A stretch of 64,000 nucleotides of DNA from Archaeoglobus veneficus SNP6. GTDB taxonomy: Archaea > Halobacteriota > Archaeoglobi > Archaeoglobales > Archaeoglobaceae. Positions 24,373 through 37,101 of this stretch are shown piece by piece; position 1 is the first letter of the stretch; each line of letters opens with the position of its first letter. Location of the stretch: contig NC_015320.1 in assembly GCF_000194625.1 (NCBI RefSeq), forward strand, positions 434,001 through 498,000, given 5' to 3'. The notes under the pieces were generated by a model. That model saw nothing but the letters and a program-made list of their open reading frames with translations. It did not search any database and was not told the DNA's origin. Both the position numbers and the translations under genes were made by a program.

Positions 24373-25368
24373 ATGAGCGGGGAAGCCAAAGGGAAAAAGA
24401 AGGAGAAGCCACCCAAAATCATAGATGCGAAGTACTTTGGCAACCTGAAGGTAGCGGTGATTGATAAGGGTATCTGCAGCCACTGTTCGACATGTGCCAC
24501 TGCATGTCCGGCGAAGGGAATAACCACTGAAGGTGTGATAGACTTCCCTAACTGGGAAGAGGATTGCACAGACTGCGGTTTCTGTATCAGAGTGTGTCCG
24601 AGGTGGGATTACAGACCTCTAAACGGCCTCGGCGAGTACATCGAGATTTTCGCAGCGAAGTCCAACAGGTTCTCCGGCCAGGATGGAGGAATGGTTACTG
24701 AAATTCTCGCGTCTGCAATGGAGATGGGCATCATAGAAGCTGCGGCAGTGGTGAGAAGGGACGAGGAATGGAAGCCTGCAGCTTTCGTTGCTAAAAGCGT
24801 GGAGGAGCTTGTGCAGGCGAGTGGGACGAAGTATAGCTATGCAGACGTGCTTCCCGCCCTGAGGAAAGCAGGGAAGGTTAGCGCGGCCATCGTTGGTACT
24901 CCGTGCATGGTGAGCGGTGCGAGAAAGCTCCAGCAGAACTTTGCAAAGTACAGAAACAATATCAGGCTGGTAGTCGGCCTCTTCTGCACGGAGAACTTCT
25001 ACTACGAGGACCTGAGGAGGTTCCTGGAGTCCAAAGGTATCGACATCTCCAGGGTTGAGAAGATGGACATAAAGAAGGGTAAGTTTATCGTATCACCACA
25101 GGGCGTTAGTTTTCCCGTAAAGGAAATGGACGAAATCGTACCTTCGGGATGTAAGGTCTGCCAGGACTTCGCAGCGGTTGAGAGTGACGTGAGCATCGGC
25201 AGCGTTGGGGCGAGTGATGGATTCTCAGCAGTAATCGTGAGGAGTGAAGTGGCAAAGCAGATTGTTGATTACATCAGGGAGAAGGGCTACGCCACCTTCG
25301 AAGATGCCAAGGTTGAACTGATTGAGAAGCTCGTGAACTTCAAGATTAAGATACACCCGTACCCCTGA
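24373..25368 (+). CDS. fqoF: F420H2-oxidising subunit FqoF (FrhB/FpoF type)
   Basis: The input module of the complex: a 331-residue FrhB-family flavoprotein that oxidises reduced coenzyme F420. An N-terminal extension is Lys-rich, then two ferredoxin motifs CSHCSTCATACPAKGI and CTDCGFCIRVCPRWDY, then the FAD/F420 domain (SGQDGGMVTEILA, VGTPCMVSGARKLQ, VGLFCTENFYYEDLRRFL). Placement as the last gene and absence of NuoE, NuoF and NuoG match the F420H2 type of complex I. Its 3' end overlaps the convergent gene by 23 bases. Confidence 0.94.
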   Translation: MSGEAKGKKKEKPPKIIDAKYFGNLKVAVIDKGICSHCSTCATACPAKGITTEGVIDFPNWEEDCTDCGFCIRVCPRWDYRPLNGLGEYIEIFAAKSNRFSGQDGGMVTEILASAMEMGIIEAAAVVRRDEEWKPAAFVAKSVEELVQASGTKYSYADVLPALRKAGKVSAAIVGTPCMVSGARKLQQNFAKYRNNIRLVVGLFCTENFYYEDLRRFLESKGIDISRVEKMDIKKGKFIVSPQGVSFPVKEMDEIVPSGCKVCQDFAAVESDVSIGSVGASDGFSAVIVRSEVAKQIVDYIREKGYATFEDAKVELIEKLVNFKIKIHPYP

Positions 25369-26509
25369 GTTTTTTGTACCGGGACACAGCTTCTCTGAAC
25401 TTCTTTTCACACTCTCTTACAGTTTTCCCCTCGTAAATGATGTCCTCATCTATTCCCTCGATCTTGCCCAGCAGCCTGTCGGATTCGACATCGGCAACGA
25501 GAGAGCCGTAAAAGCCGTCATAGTAGAAAACCTTTTTCCTGTCTTTCCTTGCATCTATGAAATCCGCTAGCCTTTTATTTTCCTCTCTTTCTAACTCTCT
25601 TATCGCACTCTCTAAGGGAACTTTATCCTCCTTTTCTGCCTCTCTCAGCTTTTTAACCAGGCCAGAACCTCTTGCCCGCTCGAATGGTATCATTCTCACC
25701 CTGAATCCGTAACCTCTACTCCGCAACCACTTTTCCACGGCTTTACAAACAACTTCATCTGAGAATTGCTCATCAACCACTATTACCCACTCCGGCAGCT
25801 CGTCTTCCTTCCCACCATCTATTTCCAGCTGCTTTTTGCTCATTACAGTCCATGTCCAGTTCAAACGGCAGCGCTCGTTCAGATCATCCTGATAGACGTC
25901 AACCGACCACGCATCCTCTCCCGGAGCCACCTCTTCGGGATAGTAAATGTCGAGGGTTTCATACCCCTCCTCCCAGAGCTCATTCAGCGCCCTTCTCATC
26001 TTCTTAGAGGTCATGAATCGCTCAATTGATTCAATGGGATTTACAGCACCTTTGAGGTGTCTTAAATTCCAGATAAACCAGATTTCAGCTTTCGGCCTTT
26101 CATACAGCCTTTCCCCGTACCACTCCCTGAGATCCTCCAGGAACTTTTCGCAGGAGTGTCTTTCGTTTCGCTCCCTGATGTACTTCTGATAGAGGTCGTG
26201 GTACATGAAGACGAGCTTTTCCAGATTTAAGCTATTCAAAAGATTCCTTGCTTCTTCCAGGGTGTCAGTTATTCCCAGGAGTATGCCCCTGCATACCACG
26301 ATGTAAACACTTAAAACACTCTTTGAGCAGTTGCTGCAGAATAGCTCTTCCTTCACGATCTCAATCTCCTCCGCATGGCCAACGCAATCTCCCACGCAGA
26401 ATGATTCCAGCATGTTCTCAAATGCCTTGGTCTGGACGGAGCGGATCTTTTCTCCACATACCGGGCATGTGTACGGCCTGTCAAGGTAGATTGTATCGTA
26501 CATTCCCAT
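25346..26509 (-). CDS. Unknown protein with N-terminal zinc-ribbon cysteines and C-terminal HicB-like domain
   Basis: A 387-residue soluble protein I do not recognise as a whole. The N-terminus has cysteine pairs (TCPVCGEK; CVGDC; CSNCSKS at about residues 15-62), suggesting a zinc-binding region. The middle is rich in Trp and charged residues. The last 60 residues (YYDGFYGSLVADVESDRLLG, then IDEDIIYEGKTVRECEKKF) look like the HicB partial RNase H fold found in antitoxins. No HicA-like partner is adjacent. The end overlaps fqoF on the opposite strand. Function unknown. Confidence 0.72.
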   Translation of the reverse strand: MGMYDTIYLDRPYTCPVCGEKIRSVQTKAFENMLESFCVGDCVGHAEEIEIVKEELFCSNCSKSVLSVYIVVCRGILLGITDTLEEARNLLNSLNLEKLVFMYHDLYQKYIRERNERHSCEKFLEDLREWYGERLYERPKAEIWFIWNLRHLKGAVNPIESIERFMTSKKMRRALNELWEEGYETLDIYYPEEVAPGEDAWSVDVYQDDLNERCRLNWTWTVMSKKQLEIDGGKEDELPEWVIVVDEQFSDEVVCKAVEKWLRSRGYGFRVRMIPFERARGSGLVKKLREAEKEDKVPLESAIRELEREENKRLADFIDARKDRKKVFYYDGFYGSLVADVESDRLLGKIEGIDEDIIYEGKTVRECEKKFREAVSRYKKLRGTGVS

Positions 26510-26677: not shown

Positions 26678-27070
26678 TCAAAGCTTCTTCAACCCTCTGA
26701 TTTTTTCAACGAATTCAGTTAAAATTCTGACGAACCTGTCGTCCTCACTCGCATCAACCCAGTCGAATTTTATCCTTTCCTCCTCAACGCCCACACTTTT
26801 GAGGATTTTCCTGAGCAACAGGTATCTTCCATAGGCTTTGTAGTTGCCAACCTTAAAGTGACATCCACCGGGACGACAGCCGAGTACCAGCACTCCGTCG
26901 GCTCCGCACTTAAAGGCCTTCATAATAAACTCAGGTTCGATCCTTCCGGTACAGGGAACCCTTATTATTCGCACGTTCTCCGGATATTCCTTTCTTGCTC
27001 CACCGGCCCTGTCTGCAGCTTCGTAACTGCAGTGGTAACAGCAAAATGCAATAATTACTGGTTCGCACAT
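26678..27070 (-). CDS. mvhD: MvhD-type [2Fe-2S] electron-transfer subunit
   Basis: A 130-residue homolog of the delta subunit of methyl-viologen-reducing hydrogenase. Cysteines occur as FCCYHCSYEAADRAG, RVPCTGRIEP and LGCRPGGCHFKVGNY, the usual cluster-binding set. MvhD normally docks an electron-input enzyme to HdrA. Here no hydrogenase large or small subunit is nearby, as in sulfate-reducing archaea where HdrA-MvhD pairs serve other donors. The ATG at 27070 overlaps the hdrA end by 16 bases, indicating translational coupling. Confidence 0.92.
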   Translation of the reverse strand: MCEPVIIAFCCYHCSYEAADRAGGARKEYPENVRIIRVPCTGRIEPEFIMKAFKCGADGVLVLGCRPGGCHFKVGNYKAYGRYLLLRKILKSVGVEEERIKFDWVDASEDDRFVRILTEFVEKIRGLKKL

Positions 27071-28965
27071 CCGGTAATCCCCTCTATTTCGGCAAAGATC
27101 TGTTCGGTTGTGTAATGTCTTGCTTTGATTGCCCCCACCGGACAGGCCGGTACGCAAATGCCACACCCTTTGCAGAAGGTCTCATCGATCACGCACACGC
27201 CCCTTTCTTCATCGTATGAGATCGCTCTATACGGACACAGTGCGATGCAGAGCTTACAGCCTGAGCACCTCTCCCCGTCAATAGTACACGCTGTTGGCTC
27301 TATTAAGAGTTTTTCTCCATGACGAAGTTTTGATAGAATCCTGCCAGCAGCCGCCATTGCTTGTTGAACACTCTCTTCTACGCTGCACGGCCCTAAAACT
27401 CCACCTGCCGCCAGTACACCTGAAGATACCTCCACAGGCGACGTTATCAGGTCTGTAACTTCAAGGAAGCCGAATTCATTCAGGCTGAGGTCAAACACTT
27501 CTGCAATTTTTTTGACCTCTGGAGAGGGAGCTATACCGCACATCAGAATAGCCATATCCACGCTCAACTTCTGGTTCCCTCTCTCTCCCGTGTATTCTAT
27601 GGTTACTTTTCCATTGGCGTTATTCACGCTAACCTTGCTTCCAGGCAACCTTCTGTGGAATCTTGCTATCCTGGATATCTCATCGTAAAGTTTCCAGTGC
27701 AGGGGGCTGGGCAGAACAAGGTCGATGTAAATGTGGTGAATTGCACAGTCTGGCAATCGTTCGTGAATTATGTGCGAGTACTTCAGGGCAACGGAACAGC
27801 AAATTTTGGAGCAGTAGCCCAGTTCTTCCCTACTAACACAGTGGATTATCGCTACGGATTTCGGTTCCTGTCCATCGGGCAGCAAAATTTTGCCGCCTGT
27901 GGGGCCATCTCTGGCGAGCACCCTCTCGAATTTTGGGGAAGTATATATCCGGGCTTCATCACGGGCAGGATATACCGAAAATCCCTGTGCAAGTATTACT
28001 GCTCCACACTTTAAACTTATTTCCCGGGCATTATCCTCAAAGTTTATAGCTTCAAAGGCACACGACTCGATACACTTTTGACACCCTCTCGTGTAGAGGC
28101 AATTTTCCCGGTCAATAACAGGCACGTTCGGCAGCACTCCGGGATACGGCAGGTATATTGCTCCTCTCTCCTTCATTCCATACTCATAGTCATTTGCCAC
28201 TCTTACCGGACACGCTTCTGTGCACATACCGCAGCCCACGCATTTATCCGCATCCACATACCTCGGTTTCTGGAGAACCCTTAACAGAAAGTTTCCCAAG
28301 CCACCCTTGGCTTCCAGAACTTCTGCATTGGTGAATACTTCAACGTTAGACCTTCCAAGAACTTCCTGAATTAATGGAGCCATTAGACACTGTGCACAGG
28401 TGAGGTTTGGGGACAGAAGTTCGTAGGTAATCGTTCTTCCACCGATGTGCGGGTTTCTCTCAATAAGGTAAATCGTTCTACGCGTGTCCTCACTCAGGGT
28501 GAGCGCTGCAAGAATACCAGCCACACCCGCGCCAACTATTGCGACATCTAAGTTAGCGTCTATGTACTTCTCCTCCAGGGGTTCGTGATACTCGACTCTG
28601 TTCAGCGCACCCTTCATCAGGTGTATTGCTTTATCTGTTGCCAGATCCGGGTTCTTACTCACCCAGGCGCACTGCTCACGTAAGTTTACGACATGAGTTA
28701 AAAAGGGATTAATTTTCGCCTTTTTGGCTACCTCCTGCAGTGTACTTTCTATCCTCTTTGGGGTGCACGCTCCAAAGACAACGTGTGTGAATCCTGAAAT
28801 TTCTTCTGGCAAGCTGTTCAGGACTTCCGGTATGCATAGCATTGGAACTGTGACAACCCCTTCTACTTCTGCGCTTATAGCTTTAGCAACCCTGTTGAGG
28901 TCTATTTTTTTGCTGATTTCACCTCCACACTCACATAAATAGACTAATTTGCGCTTTTTAACCAT
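27055..28965 (-). CDS. hdrA: Heterodisulfide-reductase-like subunit HdrA
   Basis: A 636-residue iron-sulfur flavoprotein. N-terminal domain (1-135), then the FAD site VAIVGAGVAGILAALTLSE, a Cys-rich region with CVGCGMCTEACP and CQKCIESCAFEAINF, a second nucleotide-binding half, and two C-terminal [4Fe-4S] motifs CSGCKLCIALCPYRAI and CKGCGICVPACPVGAI. HdrA is the electron-bifurcating core of Hdr complexes. HdrB and HdrC are not in this cluster, so the oxidised partner is unknown. It is preceded by the sensor gene (10 bases) and followed by mvhD. Confidence 0.93.
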   Translation of the reverse strand: MVKKRKLVYLCECGGEISKKIDLNRVAKAISAEVEGVVTVPMLCIPEVLNSLPEEISGFTHVVFGACTPKRIESTLQEVAKKAKINPFLTHVVNLREQCAWVSKNPDLATDKAIHLMKGALNRVEYHEPLEEKYIDANLDVAIVGAGVAGILAALTLSEDTRRTIYLIERNPHIGGRTITYELLSPNLTCAQCLMAPLIQEVLGRSNVEVFTNAEVLEAKGGLGNFLLRVLQKPRYVDADKCVGCGMCTEACPVRVANDYEYGMKERGAIYLPYPGVLPNVPVIDRENCLYTRGCQKCIESCAFEAINFEDNAREISLKCGAVILAQGFSVYPARDEARIYTSPKFERVLARDGPTGGKILLPDGQEPKSVAIIHCVSREELGYCSKICCSVALKYSHIIHERLPDCAIHHIYIDLVLPSPLHWKLYDEISRIARFHRRLPGSKVSVNNANGKVTIEYTGERGNQKLSVDMAILMCGIAPSPEVKKIAEVFDLSLNEFGFLEVTDLITSPVEVSSGVLAAGGVLGPCSVEESVQQAMAAAGRILSKLRHGEKLLIEPTACTIDGERCSGCKLCIALCPYRAISYDEERGVCVIDETFCKGCGICVPACPVGAIKARHYTTEQIFAEIEGITGCANQ

Positions 28966-28975
28966 TTTTTATCCC

Positions 28976-31228
28976 TTATTTTTTTGAAGTTAAAGTACTG
29001 TATATTTTCTCTGTTAGTTTGTAAGTTTTTATCTCCTCCTTTCTCATATCATCGAGCTCATCTTTTATCCTCTTTACATGTTCACGTATAATCTCAAAAA
29101 CTTTATCTTTTCCGAGCTCATCTACCAGCTCAAGCGAACCCATTATAACTGCGAGGGGGTTTCTCAGTCTGTCTGCCGAGGACTCAAACTGTTTGAGGTT
29201 GGCTGCAAGCTGCTCAATGGCCTTTTCTCTATCCTTCTCAACCTCGTACGCACTCAGCGCAAAGGCTATGTTACTTGAAAGCTTCTGAAGGAGCTCTATC
29301 TCATCTTCGCTGAAGTCCGAACTTGAGTGAATTGTAATAACACCATGGAGCACGTCGTGTATGAGAGGAATCGATAAAACATACTTGTGCGGTTTGTCCG
29401 TGCAGTGCCTGCAGAGCTTGTCATCCATCTTTAGCTTCATTATCTGCCCATCCAGGGCCTTTGAGATGGATGGGCAGTACTTAATCGCCCTGTTCATGGA
29501 ATCTATGTCGATACCCTTCGATCTTACAGGTTTCAGCTCTTCTTTCCTGCTTCCGAGAGAAGTGAAGACCGCATCATAAATCAGTGAAAGCTTCTCGCAG
29601 ACGGCTTTAAGCACGATTTCTGGATTCCTCTCCCTTGCAACGAGCTCGTTTATTTCTGATAAGACTTTAAGCAGGTTGTTAAGCTTTTCTCTATCCTTCT
29701 CAACCTCGTACGCACTCAGCGCAAAGGCTATGTTACTTGAAAGCTTCTGAAGGAGCTCTATCTCATCTTCGCTGAAGTCCGAACTTGAGTGAATTGTAAT
29801 AACACCATGGAGCACGTCGTGTATGAGAGGAATCGATAAAACATACTTGTGCGGTTTGTCCGTGCAGTGCCTGCAGAGCTTGTCATCCATCTTTAGCTTC
29901 ATTATCTGCCCATCCAGGGCCTTTGAGATGGATGGGCAGTACTTAATCGCCCTGTTCATGGAATCTATGTCGATACCCTTCGATCTTACAGGTTTCAGCT
30001 CTTCTTTCCTGCTTCCGAGAGAAGTGAAGACCGCATCATAAATCAGTGAAAGCTTCTCGCAGACGGCTTTAAGCACGATTTCTGGATTCCTCTCCCTTGC
30101 AACGAGCTCGTTTATTTCTGATAAGACTTTAAGCAGGTTGTTAAGCTCGTATACGTGTTTAATTGCATCGTTAATCCTCTCACCAATCTCAGCAAAAACA
30201 CCAGTAAGCTTTGAAACGTCAATCATCTTCGAAAGGTCTCCATCCCGTATGGCTGTGCACAGGTCCTGTATCTCATGCAGGGTAATATTAATTTGCTTTA
30301 TAGCTTGATTTATATTATTTGTAATTTCTGCGTAAATTCCCGGCATGTCCCATTCAACTTCGCTGAACTTACCCTCTGCAATCTGCTTAACAGCATCTGA
30401 AGTGTTTCTCAAGCCAAGCTCCAGCGCTATTGACATCTCGTTAATCCTCTCACCAATCTCAGCAAAAACACCAGTAAGCTTTGAAACGTCAATCATCTTC
30501 GAAAGGTCTCCATCCCGTATGGCTGTGCACAGGTCCTGTATCTCATGCAGGGTAATATTAATTTGCTTTATAGCTTGATTTATATTATTTGTAATTTCTG
30601 CGTAAATTCCCGGCATGTCCCATTCAACTTCGCTGAACTTACCCTCTGCAATCTGCTTAACAGCATCTGAAATATTCCTCAAACCGAGTTCCAGCACTAT
30701 GTTCAACACGTTCAGCGTTTCTCCTATCTCTCGGAAGTCTTCGTGGAGTTCTGAAGTCCGGAGTGTCTTTGAGAAGTCACCCCTGATTAGCGAGGATATC
30801 ATGTCCATTGTTCTGGTTACGGATTCTTTTACCTCAGTGAAGTCCTCAAGTACCTCTATGACTCCCCATAACTTTCCATTTGAAGCAATTGGTGCATGAT
30901 AAGCGCGTAGATATCGAGTCTCGCCGGATGGTAGAGTAACTTCAACGTATAATTTATCATCCATACAGGCATCTGTCTTCTCTTTGTACAGGTTCAGGGG
31001 GCAGCCCGGCGTTTGGCAGCGGTTGGAGTTAAATACCTCGTAGCACTTTCTCCCTATGAGCTCTTCAACACTGAGTTTCGTCAGCCTGGCACACCCTTTA
31101 CTTGCAAAAACTATCTCACCTTCAGGTGTGACCACGTAGATGGGGACGAATACGTTTTCAATTCCTAAAGCGATCTTATCCGGTTCAATGCTTCCGGAAT
31201 GATTGGGAAGAGTGTTCAACTTTGACAT
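28976..31228 (-). CDS. PAS / poly-HAMP / tandem-GAF sensor protein with kinase-like tail
   Basis: A 750-residue soluble sensor. Residues about 15-130: PAS domain with Cys-rich loop (CYEVFNSNRCQTPGCPLNLY). About 135-355: repeated HAMP-like helices (GDLSKMIDVSKLTGVF, GKFSEVEWDMPGIY). About 362-515 and 516-669: two identical GAF domains, each with Cys motifs (KYCPSIS, KLCRHCTDKP). About 670-735: a dimerisation-type helix with LRNPLAVIMGSLEL but no His before it and no ATPase domain after it. It may sense redox state and act on hdrA-mvhD downstream (inference). ATG 31228 (MSKLNTLPNHSG) is preferred to the frame opening at 31246. Confidence 0.85.
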   Translation of the reverse strand: MSKLNTLPNHSGSIEPDKIALGIENVFVPIYVVTPEGEIVFASKGCARLTKLSVEELIGRKCYEVFNSNRCQTPGCPLNLYKEKTDACMDDKLYVEVTLPSGETRYLRAYHAPIASNGKLWGVIEVLEDFTEVKESVTRTMDMISSLIRGDFSKTLRTSELHEDFREIGETLNVLNIVLELGLRNISDAVKQIAEGKFSEVEWDMPGIYAEITNNINQAIKQINITLHEIQDLCTAIRDGDLSKMIDVSKLTGVFAEIGERINEMSIALELGLRNTSDAVKQIAEGKFSEVEWDMPGIYAEITNNINQAIKQINITLHEIQDLCTAIRDGDLSKMIDVSKLTGVFAEIGERINDAIKHVYELNNLLKVLSEINELVARERNPEIVLKAVCEKLSLIYDAVFTSLGSRKEELKPVRSKGIDIDSMNRAIKYCPSISKALDGQIMKLKMDDKLCRHCTDKPHKYVLSIPLIHDVLHGVITIHSSSDFSEDEIELLQKLSSNIAFALSAYEVEKDREKLNNLLKVLSEINELVARERNPEIVLKAVCEKLSLIYDAVFTSLGSRKEELKPVRSKGIDIDSMNRAIKYCPSISKALDGQIMKLKMDDKLCRHCTDKPHKYVLSIPLIHDVLHGVITIHSSSDFSEDEIELLQKLSSNIAFALSAYEVEKDREKAIEQLAANLKQFESSADRLRNPLAVIMGSLELVDELGKDKVFEIIREHVKRIKDELDDMRKEEIKTYKLTEKIYSTLTSKK
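29222..30145 (-). repeat. 462-bp perfect tandem duplication (GAF domain)
   Basis: Bases 29222-29683 and 29684-30145 read identically, giving two head-to-tail copies of a 154-codon GAF unit inside the sensor gene. No difference was seen when lines were compared by eye. Confidence 0.9.
30168..30671 (-). repeat. Tandem duplication with 270-bp period (HAMP-like unit)
   Basis: Bases 30168-30401 and 30438-30671 (234 bp each) appear identical, separated by a 36-bp stretch. The following bases (after 30671) resemble that 36-bp stretch but have diverged. The unit encodes a HAMP-like helical pair of 78 residues. Confidence 0.88.
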
Positions 31229-31269
31229 TGTTCTGAGTTTAACCAATGAAACTTAAAAACATTAATGGT

Positions 31270-31491
31270 TTATATTCTTATTCGTGCCCTCCAAATGTTG
31301 CCGGTTTTCACGCATTCAAGTATGGTTTTTCCGGTCTTGGCTGCCCATATTTTCAAATCCCTTTCGAAAGTTGGACAGTCTGCCATCACTTTGATTGTGG
31401 TCCCTGGTGGAAGTTTGGTAACTCTTGCGTGAATCTTTAGAATCGGTTGCGGGCACTTCAGCCCCCTCAGATCCATCTCTTCCTCTGCCAC
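31270..31491 (-). CDS. TusA/SirA-family sulfur carrier
   Basis: A 73-residue protein with the TusA signature MDLRGLKCPQPILKI, whose Cys carries persulfide sulfur, and a second Cys in ADCPTFERDLKIW seen in many archaeal members. Family members deliver sulfur in tRNA thiolation, cofactor synthesis or dissimilatory sulfur metabolism. The GTG at 31491 is chosen because GGGGTGA lies 5 bases upstream and the length matches the family; the frame itself is open up to 31581. It is the first gene of the tusA-sensor-hdrA-mvhD run. Confidence 0.87.
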   Translation of the reverse strand: MAEEEMDLRGLKCPQPILKIHARVTKLPPGTTIKVMADCPTFERDLKIWAAKTGKTILECVKTGNIWRARIRI

Positions 31492-31521
31492 GCGTTCACC
31501 CCGCTTTGATTTATTATGGTA

Positions 31522-31535
31522 ATAGTATCTACTAT
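31522..31535. promoter_or_regulatory. Palindromic operator candidate at the tusA promoter
   Basis: The inverted repeat ATAGTA-TC-TACTAT lies between the predicted TATA box and the expected transcription start of tusA. A site in this position would let a dimeric repressor block initiation. The regulator is not known. Confidence 0.5.
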
Positions 31536-31540
31536 CATCA

Positions 31541-31548
31541 TATTTAAG
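31541..31548 (-). promoter_or_regulatory. TATA box of the tusA-sensor-hdrA-mvhD cluster
   Basis: On the minus strand the sequence reads CTTAAATA, about 50 bases upstream of the tusA GTG, predicting initiation near 31520 and a leader of about 30 bases that carries the GGGGTGA ribosome-binding sequence. Confidence 0.5.
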
Positions 31549-31555
31549 AATGTTG

Positions 31556-31670
31556 TTATGAGTTATTAACCGTATGATCATGGATCAGGTTCTGTAACTG
31601 TTCTTCAAGACAGTTCCGCTCAACTTTCCGCCGTGTTACATCAAAAAGCGTAATCTCCCCCAAGTTATTG
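31556..31670 (-). pseudogene. PAS-domain sensor fragment (C-terminal end)
   Basis: The minus strand encodes GEITLFDVTRRKVERN followed by CLEEQLQNLIHDHTV and a stop at 31556. This resembles the PAC end of PAS domains (pattern DITERK-x-E-x-x-L). No start or upstream PAS core is in frame, so it is a relic lying just before the tusA promoter. Confidence 0.45.
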
Positions 31671-32189: not shown

Positions 32190-32474
32190 CTATTCGAATT
32201 GCAAAGTGTGTAAAGCAAAGGGAAATGCAAGTGATTGCATTTTTAACAAAAAAATCCTAACAGATTCGTGACTTATTTCTTCGAATAAAGATAGAAAATC
32301 GCTTGTTTTTCTCAAAGAAAGGCCAAAGAAGTATAATAATGCTGCAAGTATTTTAAGTTCCACATCTTTCCTGTTCCTTCGAAAGACTTTTGTAGACTTG
32401 ACGTAATCTACCAACTGGCTTAGCGCAGGCTGCATAAGTTGTATCTTAGTTATTTATTTTTTGTTATTTTGACA
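32190..32474 (-). mobile_element. Relic of an IS6-like element (N-terminal part of transposase)
   Basis: About 62 codons (start near 32435) match the N-terminus of the transposase at 63.1 kb (LSQLVDYVKSTKVFRRNRKD; LKILAALLYFFGLSLRKTSD), then the similarity breaks off near 32255. The outer end, TGTCAAAATAACAAAAAATA on the minus strand ending at 32474, resembles the right end of the IS at 63120. The catalytic domain is gone. Confidence 0.75.
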
Positions 32475-32647
32475 CTGCCGTATGAGTGAAGTCATAATAA
32501 AACTTAGTTGTATGACAGATTACTTCAAAAGTTGACAGTGGCTTTTTTTAAGATTTCCTGCAACTCGAACGCAGTCTTCAGGTTTTATCTTTAACGAGAC
32601 AAAAGCCGGCTAAAAACTTATTTAAATTTCCAGCAGAACTATGGTTG

Positions 32648-32974
32648 ATGATCAAAGAGAGTTATCAAAAAGCCATTGATGAATTCGTTAGAAGAGTCAG
32701 AAAGTACGGAGATAAGATAGAGAGTATTATCCTCTTTGGCTCGGTTGCAAGAGGTGAAGCGAGAGAGGATTCGGATATTGACATACTGATAATCTCTAAA
32801 GGAGATTCATTCGATATGCAGAAACGGATATCCGAAGTTGTTGTTGAGATTCTGCTAAATACGGGTATATACATATCTGCAAAGGTTATATCTACCGAAG
32901 AATATAATTTAATGAGAAATATAAACTCTTCATTCTTCAGAAACATATCGAAAGAGGGGATTGTAATTGGATGA
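32648..32974 (+). CDS. MNT-type minimal nucleotidyltransferase (antitoxin)
   Basis: A 108-residue protein with the nucleotidyltransferase signature ILFGSVARGEAREDSDIDIL (GSx10DxD). Such proteins pair with HEPN RNases and neutralise them, in studied cases by adding AMP or other nucleotides to the toxin. The ATG at 32648 is used; a TTG lies one codon upstream. The end overlaps the HEPN gene by 8 bases, a typical antitoxin-toxin arrangement. Confidence 0.88.
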   Translation: MIKESYQKAIDEFVRRVRKYGDKIESIILFGSVARGEAREDSDIDILIISKGDSFDMQKRISEVVVEILLNTGIYISAKVISTEEYNLMRNINSSFFRNISKEGIVIG

Positions 32975-33350
32975 AGTTTATCTCCTCCTCGAAAAAGCTG
33001 AATTAAAACTCAACTCAGCTAAAATACTGTTTGAGAACAGAATCTACGATGATGCAATAAGCAGGGCATACTATTGTATGTACTACGCCGCAAAGGCATT
33101 GCTATGCATGAAGGATAAACATCCAAGAACTCATAGAGGCTTGCTATCTCAGTTTGGGCTGGAATTTGTGAAGAAAGGAATAATAGATGAGTACTATGCA
33201 AGGGCAATTACGGTGGCTCAGGAGAGGCGTGAGAGAGCTGACTACGACATATACTATTGCCCATCCAGAGAAGAAGCAGAAGCAATAATCGAAGATGCAG
33301 AAAGATTTTTGGAGAGGATAAAGAAGGCAGTAGAGGAACTGAAGAAGTGA
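32967..33350 (+). CDS. HEPN-domain protein (toxin partner)
   Basis: A 127-residue all-helical HEPN protein. The conserved pattern SRAYYCMYYAAKALLCMKD is the core helix; the C-terminal helix carries DAERFLERIKKAVEEL. The usual RNase motif RxxxxH is not obvious, so catalytic activity is uncertain. Paired with the upstream nucleotidyltransferase as a MNT/HEPN toxin-antitoxin module. Confidence 0.85.
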   Translation: MDEVYLLLEKAELKLNSAKILFENRIYDDAISRAYYCMYYAAKALLCMKDKHPRTHRGLLSQFGLEFVKKGIIDEYYARAITVAQERRERADYDIYYCPSREEAEAIIEDAERFLERIKKAVEELKK

Positions 33351-36825: not shown

Positions 36826-36987
36826 TATTATTCTCGATATTTACACCTTTTTGTTGTGGTGTTCCATCAACTCACAATCCAATCTCAATCACACCCTCCA
36901 TATCAAAAACAAACAACTTCTCTACCTTCTAACGGGACATTACCAATTTACTCTAAATTGTAAGTAGAACAATAATGGACAGTAAAG

Positions 36988-37101
36988 TCACTCAACAGTC
37001 ACGCTCTTCGCCAGATTTCTCGGCTTATCTATCTCGCAGCCCCTTTTCTTCGCCGTGTAGTATGCGAGCAACTGCAGGGCGGCTAACCGAACACCAAAAT
37101 C
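36988..37101 (-). pseudogene. 3' end of a glmS gene (relic)
   Basis: The minus strand encodes [20 protein letters not shown] followed by [17 protein letters not shown] and a stop at 36988. This is the C-terminus of glutamine:fructose-6-phosphate aminotransferase (GlmS). Only 37 codons remain; the sequence upstream in that frame hits a stop. It lies antisense to the false N-terminal extension of the rmlA frame, at the border of the glycan island. Confidence 0.85.

Follow-up and report, generated by a model that had tools for sequence, protein, structure and literature searches.

The described electron-bifurcating assemblies closest to the locus analyzed here are HdrABC-MvhAGD (PDB 5odc) and HdrA2B2C2, the complex to which the HdrA2 protein of Methanosarcina belongs (PMC5296606). 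The closest counterparts on the sensory side are the archaeal non-enzymatic HK-like proteins, which Galperin et al. (2018; PMC5847659) characterize by the formula "HisKA, no HATPase" and a conserved His, and for which response regulator (RR) phosphatase activity is proposed in the same source and no partner appears to be assigned. Long-lasting concerted evolution, in which recurrent gene conversion keeps paralogues more alike within than between species, has been reported in prokaryotes (PMC6053082). Archaeoglobus species reduce sulfite and thiosulfate, and A. veneficus reportedly does not grow on sulfate (PMC8322695).

The tusA-sensor-hdrA-mvhD cassette and its conservation

The window analyzed here is a 64-kb stretch of the Archaeoglobus veneficus SNP6 chromosome, in which tusA, a gene for a PAS-HAMP-GAF sensor, hdrA and mvhD (flpD) follow one another in this order, all on the minus strand (Table 1). 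The chromosome of this heat-loving archaeon is a single contig of 1,901,943 bp. An earlier note on this DNA had proposed the order, strand and spacing of the four genes, and the coordinates agree exactly, with gaps of 41 nt between tusA and the sensor gene and 10 nt between the sensor gene and hdrA, and a 16-nt overlap between hdrA and mvhD; the family assignments made for the four products are likewise confirmed by Pfam. The interval 28976-31491, to which the cluster had been assigned, contains tusA and the sensor gene but not hdrA and mvhD.

Table 1. Features of the cassette, with positions in the 64-kb window.
Feature	Position	Strand	Remarks
tusA promoter region	31492..31561	-	conserved TTAAATAT box
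tusA	31270..31491	-	GTG start, preceded by GGGGTGA; Pfam PF01206
tusA-sensor gap, probable second promoter (ACCATTAATGTTTTTAAG)	31229..31269	-	conserved with the sister MAG
sensor	28976..31228	-	ATG start; Pfam PAS, HAMP_2 x3, GAF x2, weak HisKA
sensor HAMP-pair tandem duplication, 270 bp	30168..30707	-	self-comparison and sister MAG
sensor GAF tandem duplication, 462 bp	29222..30147	-	self-comparison; sister-MAG contig ends
sensor DHp-like C-terminal two-helix domain, D-R-L-R-N-P-L	28979..29239	-	Asp686 at the phospho-His position
hdrA	27055..28965	-	full-length, HdrA2-like; Fer4/FAD domains; split from the MvhD domain
mvhD/flpD	26678..27070	-	Pfam PF02662, 5e-50

The cassette is present in two of the 99 genomes searched, those of A. 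veneficus and of its sister, the congeneric MAG G001 (JARQZL01, Archaeoglobales archaeon INS_M23_B45), and was not found in the other 97 related genomes; in a third congener (76% complete), neither TusA nor an orthologue-level HdrA was detected. Comparison across Archaeoglobi, a check that the earlier note had called for, yielded only these two congeners. Within the pair, the four genes do behave as the conserved unit that had been proposed. Protein identity between the two species is 79-81% for TusA, 77% for HdrA and 79% for MvhD, and in the sensor ranges by region from 65 to 100% (75% in the N-terminal and 88% in the C-terminal part). In all four genes, dN is well below dS (TusA, dS 1.25 and dN 0.10; HdrA, 1.16 and 0.13; MvhD, 0.64 and 0.12; sensor regions, 0.81-1.54 and 0.00-0.22), which indicates purifying selection on each of them.

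DNA homology between the two genomes runs from position 31561, just above the tusA promoter, down to position 26702, inside mvhD. The flanks beyond these ends differ, with the exception of the tail of glmS: both species retain the 3′ end of this gene upstream of tusA. In the window it is a remnant of 96 nt (36985-37080, minus strand) that is 90.6% identical to the MAG, and in the MAG it belongs to a longer reading frame. Given that this tail is shared and the flanks are otherwise different, the cassette has apparently stayed in its original position while the neighborhood was rearranged around it. No tRNA genes that might serve as integration anchors are present in the 64-kb window or in the MAG locus L099.

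Several other features of the flanks deserve mention. Pairs of MNT/HEPN-like genes are located upstream of tusA in both species (window 32645-33350; L099:1016-1704), with opposite gene order and orientation. A short open reading frame beside tusA (32190-32435, minus strand) shows a weak match to IS6-family transposases (E 6e-4) and is probably an insertion-sequence remnant. Just downstream of mvhD, the window encodes (25346-26509, minus strand) a 387-aa protein with CxxC-type motifs near the N-terminus and no match in Pfam or NCBIfam; the corresponding place in the MAG (L100:5275-6612) is occupied by different genes which, judged by eye, encode adenylylsulfate kinase-like and TauE/SafE-type exporter-like proteins.

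The tusA product, the sole member of the TusA family encoded in the A. veneficus genome, contains the CPxP motif (LKCPQPIL) and belongs to the TusA fold family (PF01206, 1.9e-19, 69.7 bits; match to structure 3lvj_C). Genes for TusA relatives at three other loci of Archaeoglobaceae are adjacent to what appears, on inspection by eye, to be a gene for a cysteine desulfurase. Other Archaeoglobaceae (L109-L112: G006, G020, G010, G032; e.g., L110:3121-9082) possess a different conserved TusA-HdrA cluster, which consists of genes for a DsrE-like protein, TusA, FlpD, a 430-aa QmoA-like HdrA and a full HdrA, together with a small unknown protein and an HdrC-like Fe-S protein. The TusA of these clusters has the motif CPGPM, in contrast to CPQPI in the cassette.

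The HdrA protein can be aligned over its full length with PDB 5odc_A and 8rvu. It contains the FAD domain and two ferredoxin domains, with Fer4 pairs present and a 3-residue insertion in the second cluster motif of the inserted ferredoxin, and retains the 5odc residues C386, C399, C403 and C404, which form the HdrA-specific Cys cluster, and K409, the Lys near flavin N5; no residue of the bifurcation site is missing. Its best NCBIfam model is HdrA2, of which HdrA covers positions 4-642 and MvhD positions 647-772 out of 777, so that the two proteins tile the fused model and represent a split HdrA2; MvhD also matches 5odc_D (1.4e-40). In the phylogenetic tree of HdrA, A. veneficus and the MAG form a pair on a branch of 2.15 whose sister group is unsupported (58/69), and accordingly no donor can be named. 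No closer HdrA was found in the genome collection, where full-length matches outside the genus reach at most 34% in a search that detects close relatives only. The lack of HdrB, HdrC and hydrogenase that the earlier note had emphasized holds for the genes adjoining the cassette but not for the genome, given that CCG-domain (HdrB-like) genes are located at chromosomal positions 972632, 1082429, 1403103, 1511359 and 1517930 and genes for hydrogenase large subunits at 124077, 1409163 and 1657378.

The signals between the genes point to two units. Upstream of tusA, a TCATAACAACAT..TTAAATATG block is conserved with the sister MAG, and the TATA-like box of tusA begins 56 nt (A. veneficus) or 53 nt (MAG) before the GTG. 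The sensor gene is preceded by ACCATTAATGTTTTTAAG, an 18-nt TATA-like sequence identical in both species, and TTTTTAAG begins 29-31 nt upstream of the ATG of the sensor gene in each of them; no Shine-Dalgarno sequence precedes this ATG, upstream of which there is an in-frame TTG at 31246. The conserved TATA-like block, combined with the missing Shine-Dalgarno sequence, suggests that tusA probably forms a separate transcript, and ACCATTAATGTTTTTAAG probably is an archaeal promoter that gives rise to a leaderless sensor transcript. By comparison, hdrA is preceded by the ribosome-binding site AAGGGAT, and the Shine-Dalgarno sequence of mvhD, GAGGGGAT, is located inside hdrA; in the MAG, the stop codon of the sensor gene and the start of hdrA overlap, and mvhD follows hdrA with the same overlap as in A. 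veneficus. Two transcripts, one for tusA alone and one for the sensor, hdrA and mvhD together, with read-through possible, are most likely, in place of a single unit under one promoter.

A sensor that lacks the kinase parts

The sensor consists of a Cys-rich PAS domain with C62, C71 and C76, about five HAMP units, two identical GAF domains and a His-less DHp domain. The latter scores just under the Pfam cut-off for HisKA (26.3 bits against 26.9 bits) and contains the motif DRLRNPL, with Asp686 in the place of the phospho-His; no HATPase_c was detected in the Pfam scan, and the protein stops about 60 residues after this motif. With both the HATPase_c domain and the phospho-acceptor His missing, the sensor is not a kinase, and a classical sensor output is not supported.

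The DHp-like domain is common to a wider family, in which the sensor belongs as a HisKA-like protein without HATPase. A search with profile A1 (n=16), in which N, D, R, N and P of the DHp-like motif are invariant, identified the domain in 133 of the 295 genomes of the phylum, in up to 13 copies per genome. All Archaeoglobaceae sensors of this type, collected by a search in which Asp was not a criterion, have Asp at the phospho-His position, and 20 further loci outside Archaeoglobaceae show DHIRNP or DEIRNP wherever the motif was extracted, with no ATPase motif recognized behind it. In many family members, a His follows one residue after the Asp (DHIRNPL); the A. veneficus sensor and many other Archaeoglobaceae members have Arg or Lys at that residue and accordingly no His at all. 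The "conserved His" described by Galperin et al. (2018) may be the His of DHIRNPL.

The cysteines of the GAF domain are a feature of the family as well. Among 32 members, 29 have an equivalent of C609, 22 of C606 and 20 of C544; this set was gathered with an Asp-requiring pattern, so that the invariance of the Asp rests on the other searches. The Cys-rich GAF to which the earlier note had drawn attention thus corresponds to a conserved CxxC pair (the first two of these counts), and a redox or metal site at these cysteines is plausible. The genomic contexts of the family are diverse: members at three loci (L045, L051 and L061) adjoin response-regulator (REC) genes, and none of the members examined outside the cassette adjoins Hdr genes. 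In A. veneficus itself, the gene of a 976-aa paralogue (L102:5358-10338) overlaps by 17 nt a gene for a true histidine kinase with HATPase_c. An AlphaFold model of the GAF2-DHp region, built from the single sequence, had a mean pLDDT of 42.7 and was discarded as too poor.

Tandem duplications within the sensor gene

Two tandem in-frame duplications, not noticed in the earlier note, are present in the sensor gene, and no other tandem repeats of comparable size were found in the 64-kb window. The GAF unit (462 bp, 154 aa, consisting of the GAF domain and linker helices) occurs in two copies that are 100% identical, the maximal exact repeat extending over 464 nt (464/464 identical between the copies). 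The copies of the HAMP unit (270 bp, 90 aa) are 96-97% identical, with the last 234 nt identical; each 90-aa unit contains two GDxS-like HAMP motifs and therefore reads as a HAMP pair. In the sister MAG, the HAMP pair is present in a single copy, so that the HAMP motifs would number five in A. veneficus and three in the sister species. Most simply, the duplication of the pair would be a younger gain in the A. veneficus lineage, with loss in the MAG as the alternative.

The GAF duplication seems to have a different history. The sensor gene of the MAG is split over two contigs, of which the left one ends exactly 127 nt past the first base of the repeat and the right one starts 131 nt before the end of the GAF repeat as defined in A. 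veneficus; the MAG sequence departs 4 nt earlier (GATAGAGA/GACC), which puts its own repeat end at 127 nt. Equal edges of 127 nt are expected where a de Bruijn assembler run with k=127 fails to resolve a tandem repeat. Judging by these contig ends, the GAF duplication is very probably present in the MAG too, with the same edges and with copies that are identical in at least the first and the last 127 nt. The possibility that the GAF repeat is an assembly artefact is disfavored by the 127-nt contig edges of the MAG.

Between the two species, the edge segments of the GAF repeat differ with dS of 1.3-1.5 and a single amino-acid change in 83 codons. Because the copies are identical within the A. 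veneficus genome and diverged to this extent between species, they look homogenized, and the duplication of the GAF unit is apparently old, its copies having been kept identical by recombination since before the species split. Independent duplication in each species is less likely, as the left edge would have to fall on precisely the same base twice, with a microhomology of only 2 nt (AG) at the junction. The exact domain duplications, apparently homogenized across a species split, would provide a compact natural case of the gain of modules by poly-HAMP/GAF sensors.

Possible roles of the sensor and comparison with known systems

The explanation that we consider best, although we give it slightly less than even weight, is that the co-made sensor acts on HdrA-MvhD by contact, with tusA as an adjacent separate unit of a genus-restricted cassette. 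This reading takes the gene order, the coupling signals, the cassette ends, the cofactor ligands of HdrA and the lost kinase parts as they are found in the sequence. Under this scenario, tusA would be read from its own promoter, and a second transcript, probably leaderless, would carry the sensor, a cytoplasmic protein, in translational coupling with a flavin/Fe-S electron hub of the split HdrA2 type (HdrA and MvhD). The Cys-bearing PAS and GAF domains would read the redox or sulfur state, the HAMP stack would relay the signal to the DHp coiled coil that lacks the His, and the sensor would then act by contact with another protein. The simplest candidate is HdrA-MvhD, made together with the sensor, which could in turn plug into HdrBC or hydrogenase modules encoded elsewhere. 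Whole signaling modules would be acquired by the sensor via in-frame duplication, the GAF pair being an old one held identical by recombination, that is, by concerted evolution. If the sensor indeed controls HdrA directly, bifurcation would be regulated at the post-translational level, a route that is not known to have a precedent. The fully specified proposal, in which the catalytically dead, His-free DHp sensor is a regulatory subunit of HdrA-MvhD that senses redox through GAF domains under recurrent intragenic gene conversion, appears doubtful as a whole.

A clearly less probable but serious alternative is that the sensor belongs to a two-component network, where it would dephosphorylate a stand-alone receiver and share the hdrA transcript for co-expression only. 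The A. veneficus sensor has kept the Asn of RNP (H+4) and lost both the His and the acidic residue at +1; in HisKA proteins, Thr or Asn at +4 is required only for the phosphatase activity and the acidic residue at +1 only for the kinase activity (Willett and Kirby, 2012; PMC3510030), and RR phosphatase activity is what Galperin et al. (2018) propose for such proteins. The REC genes next to three family members and the true histidine kinase gene that overlaps the paralogue in A. veneficus fit this possibility as well, whereas no REC gene was recognized in the cassette. Furthermore, no phosphatase precedent is known for Asp at the phospho-His position.

It is unlikely, although conceivable, that the four genes are neighbors without functional coupling, inherited together since the ancestor of the genus, with tusA serving general sulfur transfer. 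The restriction of the cassette to two species, the putative promoter of tusA itself and the association of some TusA relatives elsewhere with an apparent cysteine desulfurase all conform to this explanation, and a general role is plausible for the sole TusA of the genome. However, the four genes have stayed together at dS of about 1.2 while the sequence just outside changed, and the sensor gene, hdrA and mvhD are translationally coupled. For TusA and HdrA, the tie consists of adjacency in two genomes only. The original reading, a single co-transcribed unit in which the sensor matches the TusA sulfur flux to the activity of HdrA-MvhD, is highly improbable: the order of all four genes is conserved and the TusA-FlpD-HdrA linkage recurs in the DsrE-like/TusA/FlpD/HdrA clusters of other Archaeoglobaceae, but the conserved TATA-like block, the missing Shine-Dalgarno sequence before the sensor gene and the CPQPI motif of tusA, as opposed to CPGPM in those clusters, speak against it.

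The hub to which the A. veneficus sensor is translationally coupled is a concrete candidate partner for the HK-like family. Each part of the cassette belongs to a known family; what appears to be new is the combination of genes and a domain pair that seems to have stayed identical through the divergence of the two species, and no description of either was found in the literature, mostly of non-subscription journals.

In the FAD site, the cysteines of the HdrA cluster, the ferredoxin domains and the presence of MvhD, the hub resembles Methanosarcina HdrA2 and HdrABC-MvhAGD. It differs from HdrA2, a single fused protein, in that HdrA and MvhD are encoded by two overlapping genes, and from both HdrA2B2C2 and HdrABC-MvhAGD in that no HdrB/HdrC or hydrogenase genes adjoin the cassette. 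With the HK-like, non-enzymatic proteins that Galperin et al. (2018) describe from Archaeoglobi and Methanomicrobia, the sensor shares the PAS/GAF sensory domains, the HisKA-like dimerization domain and the lack of an ATPase domain, and those proteins are likewise encoded in several copies per genome in the same lineages as the sensor family. The wording there, however, refers to a conserved His, whereas the A. veneficus motif has Asp and no His, and no such protein beside Hdr genes appears to be described there. The soluble HAMP stack behind a PAS domain is reminiscent of Aer2-type poly-HAMP receptors (residues 228-314 of the sensor match the Aer2 model region), but the chemoreceptor tip is missing, and the number of HAMP units differs between A. 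veneficus and the sister MAG by one duplicated pair. Finally, the GAF pair may parallel the listed cases of prokaryotic concerted evolution (PMC6053082): its copies are identical within A. veneficus and divergent from the segments of the sister, where the pair is deduced from contig ends; those cases, however, involve paralogues that are whole genes, whereas in A. veneficus the apparently homogenized units are a domain pair inside one sensor gene.
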